Source: a virus
Length of the DNA: 64,000 nucleotides
IMG/VR virus record: IMGVR_UViG_3300020470_003428
Coordinates: 16,540 to 80,539 of that record
Strand: one strand, 5' to 3'
Position 1 is the first letter of the stretch. The number at the start of each line of letters is the position of its first letter. Positions 53,836 through 64,000 of the stretch are shown here, in pieces. Made by a program: the position numbers and the translations under genes. The notes below the pieces were generated by a model. The model was given only the letters and a program-made list of their open reading frames with translations, had not been told where the DNA came from and ran no database searches.

Positions 53836-56154
53836 ATGGCAGCTTTTGCATCTCAGCAGCCCATCGATGGCCTAGCCGATACTAGTTATTACCAAGAAGA
53901 ACTCGACAGAATTAGAAAGCGTGGTAACTCTGTTGTGCAAAATACTCCTCAAGGAGTGGCTGGAGGAGATAATATGATTGGTGACTTTTTAGATTTTTAC
54001 AACAGACAGAAAAGTCCTATATACGATGGTCTAGGAAATCAAATAGGTTTTAATCATGGCTATGGTGTTGAGGAAAGATGGGATCCTCAGCAACCAGGTG
54101 ATGACAAATGGATTAGTGATGAAGAGTGGGAGCAAATAAGAAATGAACCTTCTCCTCCACCAGAGCAGCGATGGCCTAACTTACCAGGGGAAGACGTAGA
54201 TGTACCTCAACCAATAGATAAAGGACTACCCGGATTAATCAACCCTGTTGAGCCTCCAGGTAATATCGATCCAGTATCTCCAAGATCTGGATATGGTAGT
54301 CGGATTGGCGCAGATCCTGATTCTATGTTCACCATGGATTTCCAAGATCAAGATGGTGACGGCACAGACGACAGACATCAAAGAGGCCCAGGTCAGCCAT
54401 ATATAACTTGGGAAGATTCAACTCCTGAGGAGAGAGGTAAATTTGGTCGTACACCGGGTGGACGTGATTCTAGGATTGGTCCTCCACCAGGGGGATGGGA
54501 AGAAGATATCATGCCTCCTGGTTGGGGTGGTTCAGGAACGCCTCCAAGAAGAGGTGAAAGTGCGGAAGACTATAGACGACGTATGCAGGAGATACAAGAT
54601 AACTGGGATAATAGAAGAAGAGAAGAACAAGAAGGTCGTAGACCACCTAGATGGCGTGGTGACGATCAAATTGGTCCAGGGGATCCTAGACCTCCTGTGA
54701 GACCGGGCTTACCTCGTCCTCCTGAGCCAAGACCAAGACCAAAGCCACCTGGACCAAGACCACCTGAGCCAAGACCACCTATTCCTAGTCCTGAGCCAAG
54801 ACCACCTATTCCTAGTCCTGAGCCAAGACCACCTAGACCAGAGCCAAGACCACCAAGACCAGAGCCAAGACCACCTAGACCTGACGGTGAATATGGTGAC
54901 CTTGTGCCATTCCCTATGCCACCGAGTTGGGAAGGATGTCCTACTCCTGACCAGCAAATTTTGCTAGCTGATAAAAGCTTGATTTTTGCAGGGGAACTCC
55001 AAGTTGGCGACAAAGTGCATACGATGCACGAGACAACATTTGAAAGTGGTGACTATGAAGTTACTCATGTAAGTTTCCATGAGCAGCCTGTTTATCTTGT
55101 TAAATTTAGCGATGATCACGAAATTAGATGTTCCGCGAGTCATAAGCTTTATTCCGAAGATAAGGAAGCTTGGGTTTCTATTAAAGAGTTAGGTTCTGGG
55201 GAGAGAGTCTCTTTATATGACGGAGAGGTTGCCTTTATTTCAGCTGAATACACTGGTGATGAAAAGGTAGTCAAGATTACGGTTGAGGACGCTCATACCT
55301 ATATTTGTGAAGGTTTATTCTCTCATAACAAGACCTTAGCTCCTGAATCACATCCAGACCATCCTGACTACGGAAAAGATCCTTCTGAATGGGGCAATAA
55401 GCGTCCAAAAGACGAAGTAGCCATAGGACGTATGTATCAAGATTATCTAGGAAGGGACGCCGATAAAGAAGGATTTCAATATTGGTTAGATCAGGTACGT
55501 TCCGGTAATCAAAGCTTAGACCAAGTCGCTGCGAATATCAAAGCTTCTCCAGAGTCGGAAGACTACAGAGCTAGCAGACCTACTCCTGTTTCTTCGGGTG
55601 TAGGGGATGAGGATTACAGAGCCGTCAGCATTAGATATGCCGAGGGACATGAGCCTTCAGATGAGCAACATCGTATTAACCAGAAGAAATTCTGGGAGGA
55701 GATACAGGGACCAACTAGGCGATTTGGCGAGAAGAGAAACGAAGAAAGACAAAAACTCGCAGAAAAAACTCCAGCTGTACCTGAGGAAAGGAAAGAGGAG
55801 GCGAAGGAGAGAAGTAGGCAATGGCAGCAAGATCGTGGTCCTATCAGAAGAGAGGAAAGAGCACCTAAGCCAAACATAGGCAGAGATCCGGAAAGAAGAC
55901 CACGGATAGAGCCTTCTAGACCTGAGCCTTCTAGACCTAAACCTTCTAAGCCTAAGCCTTCTAGACCTGAACCTTCTAGACCTGAACCTAAGCGTGATTG
56001 GTTGGAAGCCGCCTATCAAGATAATCTTGGACGTGCCGCAGACAAGGGTGGAAGAGAATACTGGGCTAATGAAGTTGCATCCGGACGTCAGACTAAAGAA
56101 CAGGTGGTGGAAAACATTCGGAGATCAGACGAATACAAGAATAGGAATAGGTAG
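53836..56154 (+). CDS. proline-repeat/DUF4214 protein with embedded Hint (intein-like) domain
   Basis: 772 residues. Order: polar N-terminus; Pro/Arg/Glu repeats (about 300-350, PEPRPP and PIPSPEP units); a Hint domain from Cys368 (CPTPDQQILL) to His497-Asn498 followed by Lys499 (EGLFSHNK), with block-B His436; a DUF4214 unit (about 533-577); a second Ser/Lys/Pro repeat; and a second DUF4214 at the C-terminus. The Hint is about 131 residues and has no visible homing endonuclease. HN followed by Lys, rather than Cys/Ser/Thr, suits a bacterial intein-like (BIL) domain, which cleaves rather than splices. Likely an adhesin or fibre protein. Confidence 0.75.
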   Translation: MAAFASQQPIDGLADTSYYQEELDRIRKRGNSVVQNTPQGVAGGDNMIGDFLDFYNRQKSPIYDGLGNQIGFNHGYGVEERWDPQQPGDDKWISDEEWEQIRNEPSPPPEQRWPNLPGEDVDVPQPIDKGLPGLINPVEPPGNIDPVSPRSGYGSRIGADPDSMFTMDFQDQDGDGTDDRHQRGPGQPYITWEDSTPEERGKFGRTPGGRDSRIGPPPGGWEEDIMPPGWGGSGTPPRRGESAEDYRRRMQEIQDNWDNRRREEQEGRRPPRWRGDDQIGPGDPRPPVRPGLPRPPEPRPRPKPPGPRPPEPRPPIPSPEPRPPIPSPEPRPPRPEPRPPRPEPRPPRPDGEYGDLVPFPMPPSWEGCPTPDQQILLADKSLIFAGELQVGDKVHTMHETTFESGDYEVTHVSFHEQPVYLVKFSDDHEIRCSASHKLYSEDKEAWVSIKELGSGERVSLYDGEVAFISAEYTGDEKVVKITVEDAHTYICEGLFSHNKTLAPESHPDHPDYGKDPSEWGNKRPKDEVAIGRMYQDYLGRDADKEGFQYWLDQVRSGNQSLDQVAANIKASPESEDYRASRPTPVSSGVGDEDYRAVSIRYAEGHEPSDEQHRINQKKFWEEIQGPTRRFGEKRNEERQKLAEKTPAVPEERKEEAKERSRQWQQDRGPIRREERAPKPNIGRDPERRPRIEPSRPEPSRPKPSKPKPSRPEPSRPEPKRDWLEAAYQDNLGRAADKGGREYWANEVASGRQTKEQVVENIRRSDEYKNRNR

Positions 56155-57402: not shown

Positions 57403-57687
57403 ATGACGGAAGAAAAAATCAGGGAAATCTTGCCGCACTTGTGTTACACCAAGGAAGAAGTAGATCTTCTATTGGATGATGCCGTAGCAAAAGCACGAGC
57501 AATTGATGAATTATCGATGAAAAAACATAATCGGAATGCAACTATTATTAGTATGATTTTGGGTTTCCTTTGTTTAGCATTGTTCTTGGATGGTTTATTA
57601 AGGATCTTAGGAATTATTCCACCCTTTTTAGGACTAGATGTGAATATAATTGATCAGATAGTCGATAAGGTGAAACATGCTCGATGA
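57403..57687 (+). CDS. membrane protein
   Basis: 94 residues with a helix NRNATIISMILGFLCLALFLDGLLRILG, one membrane span, and an amphipathic C-terminus. Overlaps the next gene's start by 11 bases. Holin is possible but unproven. Confidence 0.45.
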   Translation: MTEEKIREILPHLCYTKEEVDLLLDDAVAKARAIDELSMKKHNRNATIISMILGFLCLALFLDGLLRILGIIPPFLGLDVNIIDQIVDKVKHAR

Positions 57688-58327
57688 CAAAACATACGAA
57701 GAACTAGCCGCAATGAAAGGTGCTGCTCGACGAATAGGTTATTTGCCGCTATTTCCATCCTTGGTTTACAAGTATGAAATGCCTCCTGCTCTCTTAGAAG
57801 AGATGCAAGAGCATGTTAAAGATATTGAAGGAACCAGCATTGACGTGATGTCTAATCCAAAATTTGATCTGTTGAAGCGTTGTGTTCAAATCTCTTGCGA
57901 TACCTGCGTTCCTTCCACTGATAAAACAGGAGAGTGGAAAGCTGTTACAGGTTGGATTAATAATCAAAAACCTGACGAGGATGGTTTTGGTTTTCACGGG
58001 CATTGTGATTCCTTCATGTCTTCTGTTGCTTACTTGGCAGGTGAAAATATTCAAATTCTTTTTCGTGATAGCCCGAAAACTACTGAGATTGCTTCCAACG
58101 AAAACAGGAGTAATTATGACTTATTAGTGAGGCATACTTGGTATGGAGATGAGGTGGTAGACGTCAAGCCAGGTGATATCTTGTATTTTCCTAGTTATTT
58201 ACTACATAAACAGGCCAAGAATACTGGATCAACAAATAGAGTGAGTGTTGCGTACAATATTGTGCCAGATAGAAGACCTCCTTCTCCAGATGCCAGAGCA
58301 CCTTGGTTTGTGCAATTTGAAATTTAA
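57677..58327 (+). CDS. 2-oxoglutarate/Fe(II)-dependent oxygenase-like protein
   Basis: 216 residues. FGFHGHCDSFMSSVAYLAG carries His and Asp iron ligands (HxD), GDILYFPSYLLHKQAKN the distal His, and TNRVSVAYNIV the 2-oxoglutarate Arg. Sits between packaging-related genes of the late block. Substrate unknown. Confidence 0.7.
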   Translation: MLDDKTYEELAAMKGAARRIGYLPLFPSLVYKYEMPPALLEEMQEHVKDIEGTSIDVMSNPKFDLLKRCVQISCDTCVPSTDKTGEWKAVTGWINNQKPDEDGFGFHGHCDSFMSSVAYLAGENIQILFRDSPKTTEIASNENRSNYDLLVRHTWYGDEVVDVKPGDILYFPSYLLHKQAKNTGSTNRVSVAYNIVPDRRPPSPDARAPWFVQFEI

Positions 58328-58360
58328 CTTACTATATTGAGTTAACACTGATTCCAATGG

Positions 58361-58594
58361 ATGAAAAAAGAAGAAGAAAATGCTCGTGTACCTATCCCTA
58401 TTTATGACCTATTAGATGCTTGCTGTGCTTTGCATGGAGGACTAGAACTAGATAAATTTGAAGATAAAAATTATTCCCTAAAACATGCATTGAATTTGTT
58501 CTTTGGTTACATGACCCCAGAAGCAAAGGCTGAATTTAATCAATGGGTGGAGAGAAAAGGATGGAAGAAGAAAGAGAGAATCATCCTGTCTTAA
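58361..58594 (+). CDS. small hypothetical protein
   Basis: 77 residues with many aromatic and charged residues (LDACCALHGGLELDKFEDKN). Close to the terminase start. Not recognised. Confidence 0.45.
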   Translation: MKKEEENARVPIPIYDLLDACCALHGGLELDKFEDKNYSLKHALNLFFGYMTPEAKAEFNQWVERKGWKKKERIILS

Positions 58595-58620
58595 TAGTGA
58601 ATAACACTTAGACTAGCTTT

Positions 58621-60153
58621 ATGCCTAATGCTTCTATATCCCTTGCACGTAGACGTAGTGCTCAGTTAGCAGCACAATCGATTAAGGCGAAACCAGAAGC
58701 TGTTGTTACCCCACCTCACGTTCTAAAGGCTAGGAATAATTTTGCCTATTTTTGTGAATTAATGGGTAAGAAACCCGCAAAGCATATGCGGGAGTGGCAT
58801 AAACAGATACTAACTGGAGAAAGTAACGAGCATTTGCTCGATATCGCGGGTCCCAACACTTGTCTATTAAGTCCACGAGGTAGTGCTAAGTCTACTGTTA
58901 TAGGACTATTAATAGCATGGCTGATAGGTAGGCATGCGGAAGCAGGGAAACTTTTAAGAACTCTCTATGTTTCTTATAACGTGGATGTTGCAAGGAATAA
59001 AAGTGCAGCAATTAAAAATTTGATATCTAATAAAGAGTATCAAGAGGTTTTCCCTAAAGTTCGATTATCTAAGCATCGAACAAGTGATGAGCTATGGTCG
59101 ATTGATTTTGAACATGCAGGGGTAGACATTAGAGGAGAAGATGCTTTTACTGTTGCTTGTGCAGGATTAAAAGGAACAATTACTTCCAAGCGAAGTTCTT
59201 TGATTATTGTTGATGACGCAATTAAAAGTGCTGCTGCGATTGCTAATCCAGACATCCGAAGAGAGATGGAATCGAACTGGACTAACGTTATTGTTCCCAC
59301 CATGTTCCAAGGTGCAAGAGCTATTGCACTAGGAACTCGTTTCCATTTTGATGATTTATTTACAACGATTTTTTGTGAGAAGAGAGGATGGAAAGTTATC
59401 ACTCAACAAGCGTTAAGTTACGACGATAATGGAACCCCTAAATCTTATTGGGGGTCAATGTGGTCGGTAAGTTATTTATTAAAACTTCAATCGGAAGACC
59501 GAATTGCTTTTTCTTATCAATATTTAAATCAACCAATCAAGACAACAGAGCTTGGCCTATCTCCAGAGTTGTTTATTAAAGGAGAGGTTCCTGATACTTA
59601 CGACACGATTGGTGTCGGTATTGATTTATCTGCAGGGATGAGTGAACGTAATGATTGGACTGTCTTTGTTTTGGCTGGGAGAGTAGAAGACAAGGTCTAT
59701 ATCATTGATTACAAGAGAATGAGATCAATGGGGAATATCGAGAAAATAGAGGCTTTAGCGGAATTATTAGTCGAATGGAATTTACTTGGAATGAATGATG
59801 AAGGACAATTTTTCAAGACTGAATCACCTGTTGTTATATGGCCTGAGATTGTTGCTTATCAGAAAAGTTTTGAAGGTGATTTAAAACGAATTCTTTTCAA
59901 TGAATGGCAGCTGTATAATTTAACTGTGAGTCCTGTCAAGGGTTTTCGTGGCGATAAACTCGCTCGTCTTAGAGGAATTATCGGTTTATTCCAAGGCAAG
60001 AAGATTATCTTCAATAAATACAGAGATTTTTCTTACATGGTTGACGAGGTTGTGAATTTCGGTCACGCATCACATGATGATTGTGCTGATGCTTTAAATA
60101 TCGTGGTGCAAGGTCTCATGAAACGAGGCGGTGCGCAGATCCAATGGCAGTAA
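58621..60153 (+). CDS. terL: terminase large subunit
   Basis: 510 residues. ATPase P-loop SPRGSAKST at 84-92 and Walker B SLIIVDDA. The nuclease part starts near GVGIDLSAG and includes a conserved Asp, with DDCADAL near the end. It pumps DNA into the prohead and cuts the concatemer. The PRGSAKST P-loop differs from T4 gp17, so the packaging system is not T4-type by this motif. Confidence 0.85.
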   Translation: MPNASISLARRRSAQLAAQSIKAKPEAVVTPPHVLKARNNFAYFCELMGKKPAKHMREWHKQILTGESNEHLLDIAGPNTCLLSPRGSAKSTVIGLLIAWLIGRHAEAGKLLRTLYVSYNVDVARNKSAAIKNLISNKEYQEVFPKVRLSKHRTSDELWSIDFEHAGVDIRGEDAFTVACAGLKGTITSKRSSLIIVDDAIKSAAAIANPDIRREMESNWTNVIVPTMFQGARAIALGTRFHFDDLFTTIFCEKRGWKVITQQALSYDDNGTPKSYWGSMWSVSYLLKLQSEDRIAFSYQYLNQPIKTTELGLSPELFIKGEVPDTYDTIGVGIDLSAGMSERNDWTVFVLAGRVEDKVYIIDYKRMRSMGNIEKIEALAELLVEWNLLGMNDEGQFFKTESPVVIWPEIVAYQKSFEGDLKRILFNEWQLYNLTVSPVKGFRGDKLARLRGIIGLFQGKKIIFNKYRDFSYMVDEVVNFGHASHDDCADALNIVVQGLMKRGGAQIQWQ

Positions 60154-60162
60154 GATTAAGAA

Positions 60163-62400
60163 ATGAGTAACCCATCTAACGAGAGATACCGTCAGATCCT
60201 AGAAGCTGCTAGGAAGCGTGATGGAAGCAGTGGCACTGACACGATGGTTGTCAATAGTCACTTAGCTCAGATGAAGCTTTTCATGCTGAGACAAGGAATT
60301 GAATTTTTCCCTGCACAAGATACATTTGGCTTTAGAAAAATATTCATTCAACAATTAGTTGAAGAGAATGAAATTGATAGCAGGTTAGAAGGAATTGTTG
60401 ATGATTTCTTACTAGATGGTAAAGGGTTATTTTATTTCAGACCTGTAGACGATACATATAGGTTGATGTGGTTCAGCAAAGAGAACTACAGAGCTTACTA
60501 TGACGCTCAGTCTCAGTTAGAAGAGATTGAACTGATTTATTCTTTCTCTGTGCGTAGTGGCACAGGAGCGCTAGCTATACCTACAGCAGATAATGGCAGC
60601 ACAAGATATGTCAAATTACAAGTTAGACGCGATACGATCAAAGAATCAATAACAACTGAAAGACCTTCTTTCGAAGCAGGACAAACTAACAGCTTTACTT
60701 GGTCTCCTAATCAAACAAGGACTTTGGTCAACAGCCTTGGATTTATCCCTGCGGTTGAAGCCTTTAACACAATGCGTTCTACAGGAATGGACGCAACAGG
60801 TGATTTTGATTGGTTGTCTGAGCAGATTGTATTGCATGATGATTTAGTTAAAAATATTCGTACAAACATTACGTTCTTTGGTAATCCAACCTTAGTTTCT
60901 AGTAGACCTAAACATGATCTAGTCGAATCAGGATCTGAAGAAGGTTTAAGACCAACAATTAGTTCTCAGGCAGGATTCTACTCAGCAAGTAGACCATCGA
61001 CTCGTGTAAGTGAACCTGGACCAAGTGGTGGTGGTGGATCCTTAAAAGTTCCTCGGATCATTGCCAATGTTGAACCGACTGACCGGGCTGTTTACTTAAC
61101 TCCTGATGCCGTTTCTGGTGATCAGAATTTATATGCACGTCAATATCGAGAGGAATTAAGAACCGCAATGGGCGGAGTAGATGAGCTAGGAATTAGTTCT
61201 GGAGCAACAGCCTACGAAATTAAATCTTTATATGGTCGAGCAGCTACAACGGCTACACGTCGATGCAAGGGGTTATTGACATACGGATTATGTAAATTAT
61301 TTGGTTTAATTATTTATCACGAAGAAAAAATCTTCCGTGATTCCTTCGCTATGGCGATAGGGATGAAAAGGCCGGCGCCACCTATCGAAGAGAACTTCCA
61401 ACCAGGAGAAGACTACGACAAAGCAGTAGGAGCTTTTCAGGAACAAGAGAAAGCATACGACGAACAACTAGAATTAGCCATCCGAGAAGCAGTCCAGTCC
61501 ACTGAACTTCCTCCGGGTGTTGTCGGTTTAATCCCCGACGGCAACAGGAAGATTGAGTGGAGATGGAAGGGTCCAGTCTTTGAGGACGGCACAGAGGATA
61601 TACTGAATTCAAGTATTGTGGTTCGTAACCTACAAGAACTCGGTGTTAACAGCATCGAAGCGTTGCGTTACCTCTTCCCTGACAAAACAGATGAAGAGAG
61701 AAGTGCAATGCTTAGTGGCTATCCATTTAGAATGGCTCAAGCCACCCAAAGCAGTATTGGACAATTCTTGGCGCTGATAAATGACATGCGTCAAACCCCT
61801 CATCCTCAGGCCCCAGATCTACCGCTTTTGGCAGATCCTAAACTTGACTTAACACCCTACGTCTATAGGGCATTCGAATTTTTAAAGAGAGAACTAACTT
61901 ATGCAGGACAGTATTCAGACACAACAGGCTCCGGCGACCCAACAGAACTCGATACCATCGAGCGCGCCCGTTCCGAACGCGGCTTACCAGCAAGCTCCGG
62001 CCCAGACCGCCCAAGTTTCGTACCAGACACCTTCGGAACAATCGGTTCAGGCGGTGGCACCCCAGGTTCAGGCACCCCAGCCACAGGCTCCGGTCCAGGA
62101 GGTCAATCCATGGCAGGAGGCGTTCAAGAGCCTCAGCGACAGTTTGAGCGCAACGCAGACCTCCCAGCCCCAGGCAGCTTACTCAACTCCGACCCCACAA
62201 CAACCGCAGACAAGCAGCTTTCCCTCTCAGGTTCAGCAATACCAAGCGGCTCCGTCCGTTTCGGGGATGCAGACTTATCAGCCCCAAGCAACGCCGGCGT
62301 ACTCCCCGACCCAGCAGGTACAGGCGCAGCCCTCGACACAGCAAGGAGCAACACAAGGCGGAGACGGGTATCTAGACAACGTCAGCAACGAAAGTCTTGA
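60163..62400 (+). CDS. portal protein with overprinted C-terminal extension
   Basis: 745 residues, starting 10 bases after the terminase stop, the usual place for a portal. The stretch IVDDFLLDGKGLFYFRPVDDTYRLMWFSK is typical of a portal wing, and the N-terminal 580 residues are alpha/beta with AMGGVDELGISSGATAYEIKSLYGRA. From about residue 581 the frame becomes Gly/Ser/Pro/Thr-rich and overlaps the scaffold-like gene in another frame for 500 bases. The portal core probably ends near residue 580. Confidence 0.75.
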   Translation: MSNPSNERYRQILEAARKRDGSSGTDTMVVNSHLAQMKLFMLRQGIEFFPAQDTFGFRKIFIQQLVEENEIDSRLEGIVDDFLLDGKGLFYFRPVDDTYRLMWFSKENYRAYYDAQSQLEEIELIYSFSVRSGTGALAIPTADNGSTRYVKLQVRRDTIKESITTERPSFEAGQTNSFTWSPNQTRTLVNSLGFIPAVEAFNTMRSTGMDATGDFDWLSEQIVLHDDLVKNIRTNITFFGNPTLVSSRPKHDLVESGSEEGLRPTISSQAGFYSASRPSTRVSEPGPSGGGGSLKVPRIIANVEPTDRAVYLTPDAVSGDQNLYARQYREELRTAMGGVDELGISSGATAYEIKSLYGRAATTATRRCKGLLTYGLCKLFGLIIYHEEKIFRDSFAMAIGMKRPAPPIEENFQPGEDYDKAVGAFQEQEKAYDEQLELAIREAVQSTELPPGVVGLIPDGNRKIEWRWKGPVFEDGTEDILNSSIVVRNLQELGVNSIEALRYLFPDKTDEERSAMLSGYPFRMAQATQSSIGQFLALINDMRQTPHPQAPDLPLLADPKLDLTPYVYRAFEFLKRELTYAGQYSDTTGSGDPTELDTIERARSERGLPASSGPDRPSFVPDTFGTIGSGGGTPGSGTPATGSGPGGQSMAGGVQEPQRQFERNADLPAPGSLLNSDPTTTADKQLSLSGSAIPSGSVRFGDADLSAPSNAGVLPDPAGTGAALDTARSNTRRRRVSRQRQQRKS

Positions 62401-62965
62401 AGTTCTTCAGCACTTCGGAGCAGAAGCACCAGCACTTTTAAATAGATATGCATGCACCGTTGAGGATGCACTTCTTCAGCAGGCAAATCAAACTCAGGAA
62501 GCGTTCCAAAGAATTAATACCTTAGCCAAGAACGTCGAAGGAGCTAAGAAAGTTGTTGATGCTGCAGCCGCAGATAATGCTGCATACCATACAATGCTGA
62601 CTAACCCTGACCTACTCTCTGAGTACGTTAACGAGTTCTTCGGTCCTAATGGTCCTCATCCTGTAGAGATAGCTCAGGATCGTCTAGCAGCAGAAGTTGC
62701 AGCGAACGAAGCAAAGATGGGAATTACTCAGGCTCCTGCTCCTCAGGCTCCTGCCCCTCAAGCTCCTGCTGGACAAACTCCAACTCAACAGTTCCAGCGT
62801 CCTCAGATCGATATGCCTAACCCAGGCGTACAAGCTCCTCAAAACGGAGATTTCTGGGCAGAGTTCTCTAACTTGAGTGATAAGAACCCAGCAGCTGCAT
62901 GGCAGGCTTTGAGTTCAGCTACTCCAGATCAACTACGTAGCAAGCTTCTCGTTTCAGAAGGCTAA
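61901..62965 (+). CDS. scaffold-like protein, overprinted on the portal gene
   Basis: 354 residues from ATG 61901, in the +1 frame relative to the portal. The first 167 residues are Ala/Pro/Gln-rich low complexity. The later part forms Gln/Glu helices (VEDALLQQANQTQEAFQ, DRLAAEVAANEA) and a Pro/Gln tail. Position after the portal and this composition suit a capsid scaffold. It ends before a strong terminator at 62980. Confidence 0.65.
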   Translation: MQDSIQTQQAPATQQNSIPSSAPVPNAAYQQAPAQTAQVSYQTPSEQSVQAVAPQVQAPQPQAPVQEVNPWQEAFKSLSDSLSATQTSQPQAAYSTPTPQQPQTSSFPSQVQQYQAAPSVSGMQTYQPQATPAYSPTQQVQAQPSTQQGATQGGDGYLDNVSNESLEVLQHFGAEAPALLNRYACTVEDALLQQANQTQEAFQRINTLAKNVEGAKKVVDAAAADNAAYHTMLTNPDLLSEYVNEFFGPNGPHPVEIAQDRLAAEVAANEAKMGITQAPAPQAPAPQAPAGQTPTQQFQRPQIDMPNPGVQAPQNGDFWAEFSNLSDKNPAAAWQALSSATPDQLRSKLLVSEG

Positions 62966-63653: not shown

Positions 63654-64000
63654 ATGACTTCTTCTTCTTTAACAAGAAGTGGCAGTGTTTTGAAAGGATG
63701 GGACGAGTTCTGTGAGTGGACTACTTCTACTAGTAATCGTATTTACGTTGGTTGGTTTGGAGTCTTAATGATTCCATGTCTACTTACTGCAGCAACTTGT
63801 TTCATCATTGCTTTCATAGCTGCTCCTCCTGTCGATATTGACGGGATTCGTGAACCAGTAGCAGGTTCATTCTTATATGGAAACAACATCATCTCAGGAG
63901 CCGTTGTACCGTCATCTAACGCAATCGGTCTTCACTTCTACCCAATCTGGGAAGCTGCAACCCTCGACGAATGGCTCTATAACGGAGGACCATATCAACT
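63654..64000 (+). CDS. psbA: photosystem II D1 protein, 5' part (continues past window)
   Basis: At least 115 residues from ATG 63654. [44 protein letters not shown] and [21 protein letters not shown] are classical D1. D1 forms the photosystem II core with D2 and is replaced during light damage; phage copies keep photosynthesis running during infection. Truncated only by the window edge. Confidence 0.95.

Follow-up and report, generated by a model that had tools for sequence, protein, structure and literature searches.

Portal and scaffold-like genes in relatives of cyanophage S-EIV1 very likely share an old, dual-coding overlap

The end of the portal gene in this viral genome raises a question: do the same 500 nucleotides encode the C-terminus of one head protein and the N-terminus of another, or is one of the two open frames a by-product? 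The window, i.e., the whole stretch of 64,000 nucleotides analysed here, corresponds to positions 16540-80539 in a virus record that is 80,539 bases long (~80.5 kb). Judged by its sequence, the source virus is a relative of cyanophage S-EIV1. On the plus strand its genes follow the order TerL, portal, scaffold-like, a 168-aa ORF and psbA-like, the ORF from 63654 being what we take to be psbA-like through its likeness to D1 protein. The relevant features are:

58621..60153, + strand: terminase large subunit (TerL), 510 aa (PHROG 38, E=2e-66; Pfam Terminase_6C)
60163..62400, + strand: portal protein gene, 745 aa, including the overlapped C-terminal tail of 166 codons (PHROG 20475, Foldseek, position 3' of TerL)
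60163..61899, + strand: portal core, 579 codons, fold-bearing (alignments; AlphaFold2)
61884..61893, + strand: putative weak Shine-Dalgarno-like stretch of the GAGAGAAC type, 5' of the scaffold start (sequence)
61901..61903, + strand: scaffold start codon ATG, formed within the portal codons TAT GCA (Y-A-G)
61901..62400, + strand: probable double-coding overlap, 500 nt, with portal residues 580-745 and scaffold residues 1-166 (ORF table, dual-frame constraint)
61901..62965, + strand: scaffold-like protein gene, 354 aa, its N-terminal 166 aa overprinted (conserved in relatives; model; gene order)
62105..62146, + strand: predicted scaffold helix NPWQEAF..L...L, scaffold residues 69-82 (invariant residues, model, scaffold-dominated constraint)
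62356..62400, + strand: basic C-terminal tip of the portal tail, RRRRVSRQRQQRKS, with stop TGA (charge, stop conservation)
63654..63998, + strand: 5' part of the psbA-like gene, cut by the record end (ORF translation)

Two further observations concern the region before TerL. A match to 2OG-Fe(II) oxygenase (PHROG 81) lies at window 57677-58327, and similar-looking ORFs were seen by eye in locus L132 (12916-15013). A 772-aa protein (window 53836-56154) carries DUF4214 and a Hint/pretoxin-Hint-like domain; here PT-HINT (Pfam, E 3.2e-6) is just above its cut-off and Intein_splicing below cut-off.

At the sequence level, the portal assignment is based on a match of residues 4-683 to PHROG 20475 (E=3.9e-183), which is described within head and packaging as 'virion structural protein' only. 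The identity proposed in the initial annotation is backed by the fold: the top 50 PDB matches from Foldseek of the AlphaFold2 model were all portals or portal-containing complexes (best E 6e-9, probabilities 0.99-1.0), among them those of T7, 80alpha and the cyanophages P-SCSP1u and Pan3, with low TM-scores and a modest model pLDDT of 56. The gene lies 3' of TerL and 5' of the scaffold and major capsid protein (MCP) genes, as a portal gene should, and alignments show that its core has been conserved among portals as little as about 50% identical. In the model, residues 564-578 form the last long helix of the portal, which ends within two codons of the scaffold start. Beyond this helix, the low-confidence model suggests a chain that is probably disordered. 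Since the end of the folded portal and the beginning of the scaffold gene nearly coincide, the overlap would encode two disordered arms.

For the protein of the second frame, AlphaFold2 gave an all-helical model: residues 1-152 are of low confidence, with one helix at 70-83, and are followed by a long coiled coil and then by a helical domain at the C-terminus. Its gene is situated between portal and MCP, with MCP close by in S-EIV1, L127, L129 and L130 and ~3.5 kb downstream of it in clade B; no MCP gene was found in the window record. Searches against PHROG, Pfam and NCBIfam revealed no match above cut-offs for the window protein and weak matches for a few relatives, and a PDB search with the model gave no fold match. 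As neither homology nor fold supplies the name, we infer 'scaffold' from gene order and the all-helical coiled-coil architecture, which make this identity likely.

The portal frame had been claimed to run 500 bases into the scaffold-like gene. This holds exactly, for 61901-62400 on the same strand, with the scaffold frame +1 relative to the portal frame and both frames open for 166 codons in the ORF table. 'Nested' is not the right word for the scaffold gene, though: the overlap is partial and covers 500 of its 1,065 nt. How widespread is this arrangement? Within the annotated phage collection, Synechococcus phage S-EIV1 is the sole protein-level relative, with a portal 47.5% identical to that of the window, and scans of IMG/VR delivered 140 matches in one case and at least 594 and at least 596 in two others. 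We analysed 168 loci in which both genes are complete, taken from IMG/VR plus S-EIV1 (106 first, to which 62 of the S-EIV1 clade were added). They fall into the window-like clade A, clade B at ~50-55%, clade C, which is the S-EIV1 clade, and intermediates. All 168 have kept the overlap (443-638 nt, median 512), the length of which varies by whole codons with both frames remaining open. It is also present in nine further loci from microbial genome assemblies (binned contigs, presumably viral). Relatives without the overlap, sought in order to learn which frame is older, were found neither among the matches listed by the IMG/VR scans nor in a scan of GTDB genomes.

Early stops in the portal frame, which the initial annotation had named as counter-evidence, are absent from all complete relatives (0/168). 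The lone exception belongs to an incomplete locus, L157, where TAC has turned into TAG within the last 12 bases of the contig, a probable contig-end error. The regular portal stop sits at the corresponding place across the family, being TGA in 102 of 106 loci, and the last 15 aa of the portal bear a median net charge of +6 (168 relatives).

The scaffold start is equally persistent. It is ATG within the portal sequence TATGCAG in 80 of 106 loci and in 62/62 of the S-EIV1 clade, and GTG within ACAGTGG (portal TAC AGT GGA, YSG) in 26 of 106. GTG starts belong to three or more separate groups (L013/L019, L086/L087 and clade B), and a portal change from Ala to Ser (YAG to YSG) accompanies the switch from ATG to GTG. 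Thus, with ATG in YAG portals and GTG in YSG portals, the scaffold start codon is never lost. The portal Tyr codon was also seen to be TAT in all ATG-start members and TAC in all 26 GTG-start members; TAT is necessary for the ATG start, and for TAC there is no obvious need with GTG. The same-strand +1 arrangement would also permit ribosomes to undergo a programmed frameshift close to where the portal core ends and produce a portal-scaffold fusion, instead of or besides independent initiation. We hold such a frameshift to be extremely unlikely: the compensatory ATG/GTG switching keeps a start codon at the junction, a good Shine-Dalgarno precedes it in S-EIV1 (clear AAAAGGAG, weaker in the window), and in many members the scaffold frame has a stop two codons ahead of its ATG (TAA CTT ATG), which leaves little room for a shift.

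In this phase, portal third positions are scaffold second positions and scaffold third positions are portal first positions, so that selection on the two frames can be tested separately. The codon-substitution analysis in relatives that had been proposed as a check found both frames constrained in the overlap. Changes were counted pairwise over 34 independent sister pairs and by parsimony on trees, not with a full codon model; if saturation has any effect, it lowers the estimate of the neutral rate. In the sister pairs, 4.6% of portal third positions differ within the overlap, compared with 19.7% of those in portal-only sequence (p 3e-216); for scaffold third positions the values are 7.4% and, in scaffold-only sequence, 16.1% (p 5e-48). 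Limited to four-fold codons encoding the same residue, the sister pairs gave 3.7% in the overlap vs 23.4% upstream for the portal (ratio 0.16) and 8.2% vs 18.2% downstream for the scaffold (ratio 0.45). Fitch counts on trees concur in clades A, B and C, the scaffold-frame four-fold test on the tree of clade B alone, which is small, being not significant (p=0.3). At the protein level evolution is faster in the overlap, by 2.6x at portal first and 3.1x at scaffold second positions compared with the non-overlapping parts. Purifying selection on both frames throughout the family is strongly supported by these substitution patterns.

Could the overlap be translated in the scaffold frame only, with a portal shortened by processing or another end and its open frame a by-product? 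Stops are rarer in the portal frame because the scaffold is rich in Ala, Pro, Gln and Ser; codons for A/P/Q/S/T, AGY aside, cannot create stops in this phase, and own-codon permutation left the portal frame open in a median of 4% of clade A trials. This confound is real but partial, and insufficient to explain the results. When the codons of the window scaffold peptide were redrawn synonymously, 0.1% of trials kept an open portal frame, with ~6.4 stops expected; with scaffold-only codon usage, redraws did so in 0-0.5%, typically in none. Furthermore, 339 scaffold-silent changes produced 0 portal stops, where ~19 would be expected without constraint. Chance openness of a low-complexity frame was ruled out by the codon redraws together with the absent portal stops. 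Since scaffold third positions in the overlap also change at under half the scaffold-only rate, and portals that have diverged by about 50% still share the basic C-terminus and the place of the stop, we consider translation in the scaffold frame only to be very improbable.

The opposite reading, translation of the overlap in the portal frame only with the scaffold starting downstream, is the one that the GenBank annotation of S-EIV1 (KJ410740) favours. There, the portal (AHV82224) extends from 57537 to 59840 and of the scaffold no more than the C-terminal 134 aa are annotated (AHV82225). Most of the scaffold frame is lacking in that record, although S-EIV1 has the same +1 overlap as the window: its unannotated frame runs from an ATG at 59287 to 60264, encodes 325 aa and shares 554 nt with the portal gene. 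A start downstream, as in that annotation, was rejected in view of the portal four-fold constraint, with variation in the overlap at 16% of the upstream rate, and of the window having no Met near the position concerned. As the ATG/GTG start is always present and the NPW motif invariant as well, a scaffold of the AHV82225 type (134 aa) appears highly improbable for the family.

Other parts of the S-EIV1 record deserve a remark. Its TerL (846 aa; L081 2544-5084, KJ410740 54080-56620) carries an intein, recognised by Pfam Intein_splicing over residues 202-526 (E 1.4e-11) and by NCBIfam through its N- and C-terminal splicing regions; the window TerL (510 aa) is without one. Its MCP gene seems mis-annotated: the minus-strand ORF AHV82227 lies over most of an open 385-aa plus-strand frame (L081 9317-10471, KJ410740 about 60853-62007), the last 156 aa of which are AHV82228, with a match to PHROG 1357 (major head protein).

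Constraint is not shared evenly along the overlap but alternates, in all three clades, between portal-dominated segments and the scaffold-dominated NPW helix. For the NPWQxAF helix, the ratio of portal-changing to scaffold-changing differences is 2.3, 2.0 and 6.2 in clades A, B and C; for the portal-dominated segment of the FGDADLSAPSNAGV type it is 0.82 and 0.69, and 0.49 for the S-EIV1 equivalent. The NPWQEAF..L...L helix is the most conserved scaffold segment within the overlap, with W71 and A74 invariant in 57-58 sequences. This bears on the idea that a cis-acting RNA or DNA element, not two proteins, underlies the conservation. Reduced synonymous change by itself cannot discriminate such an element from dual coding. 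However, each frame has conserved amino-acid motifs, the constraint extends over the entire region, and a fixed element is hard to reconcile with a length of 443 to 638 nt that changes codon by codon in two open frames; its probability is next to negligible.

Composition is in line with dual coding as well. The overlap, described as GC-rich from the start, has a median GC of 0.62 vs 0.45 in portal-only and 0.52 in scaffold-only sequence, and exceeds both in 168/168 relatives. This rise fits dual coding, as scaffold third positions are G-rich and T-poor, being portal first positions, and portal third positions are C-rich due to the second positions of scaffold Ala, Pro, Ser and Thr codons. The biased composition noted earlier was likewise confirmed, the portal side being G/S/P-rich, plus A and R, and the scaffold side A/Q/S/P-rich. 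Lys and Arg are scarce in the scaffold arm, with a median of 2 residues.

Taken together, a genuine and old dual-coding overlap of two head-morphogenesis genes, portal and scaffold, is very likely on sequence grounds. The portal fold would end near residue 579 and be followed by ~166 further codons for a disordered tail, rich in Gly, Ser and Pro and basic at its tip. At the end of the folded portal, one base out of frame, the scaffold gene would start with ATG or GTG, probably by independent internal initiation. The same DNA would thereby supply the scaffold with a disordered Ala/Gln/Pro/Ser-rich N-terminal arm, containing the conserved NPWQxAF helix, ahead of its coiled-coil body and C-terminal helical domain. 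The scaffold of P22 sits on the portal as a dome (PMC12005531), and the C-terminal domains of the P22 portal form a barrel that putatively extends inwards (PMC4992974). By analogy with these P22 domains, the twelve portal tails may project between the scaffold arms inside the procapsid, where they might help to nucleate scaffold on the portal, and the overlap would tie both partners into one inherited cassette. That it couples two assembly partners, as first suggested, is a plausible hypothesis. Rather unlikely, in our estimate, is the stronger version, in which portal tail and scaffold arm bind or co-assemble co-translationally and the overprint enforces co-inheritance and correct nucleation at the portal vertex.

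Among large-genome dsDNA phages, few overlaps of this length are out of frame. Here, ~500 nt shared by what appear to be the two proteins initiating head assembly are kept in a lineage widespread in seas and lakes, with genomes of ~80 kb for which compression is no obvious need. The finding corrects the annotation of a cultured phage, S-EIV1, which misses the scaffold frame in the overlap. It also provides a natural data set of two disordered proteins sharing one sequence and raises the question whether portal tail and scaffold arm interact.

Among known systems, lambda C/Nu3 and herpesvirus UL26/UL26.5 have a scaffold that shares DNA with another head-assembly gene by means of an internal start. 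In contrast to the present case, these pairs are in-frame with shared C-terminal sequence, so there is no overprinting, and the partner is a protease, not a portal. Lambda Rz/Rz1 form an out-of-frame same-strand overlap, fully nested and much shorter than that of portal and scaffold. These spanins are two interacting phage proteins, and widespread, but they belong to lysis (PMC5295617, PMC6139136). The T7-like cyanophage P-SSP7 has the portal-scaffold-psbA order of the window in gp8/gp9, yet these overlap by 1 nt, and no homology of either window protein to gp8/gp9 was detectable. Its full order (L213) is portal-scaffold-hli-psbA-MCP; psbA may have a recurrent insertion place. An overlap of portal and scaffold in different frames did not turn up in the literature searched, which contained few of the subscription journals. 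Many viruses have overlapping genes, but across virus reference genomes a +1 overlap measures 14 nt at the median (PMC8903798). For a large-genome tailed phage, the portal-scaffold case is unusually long.
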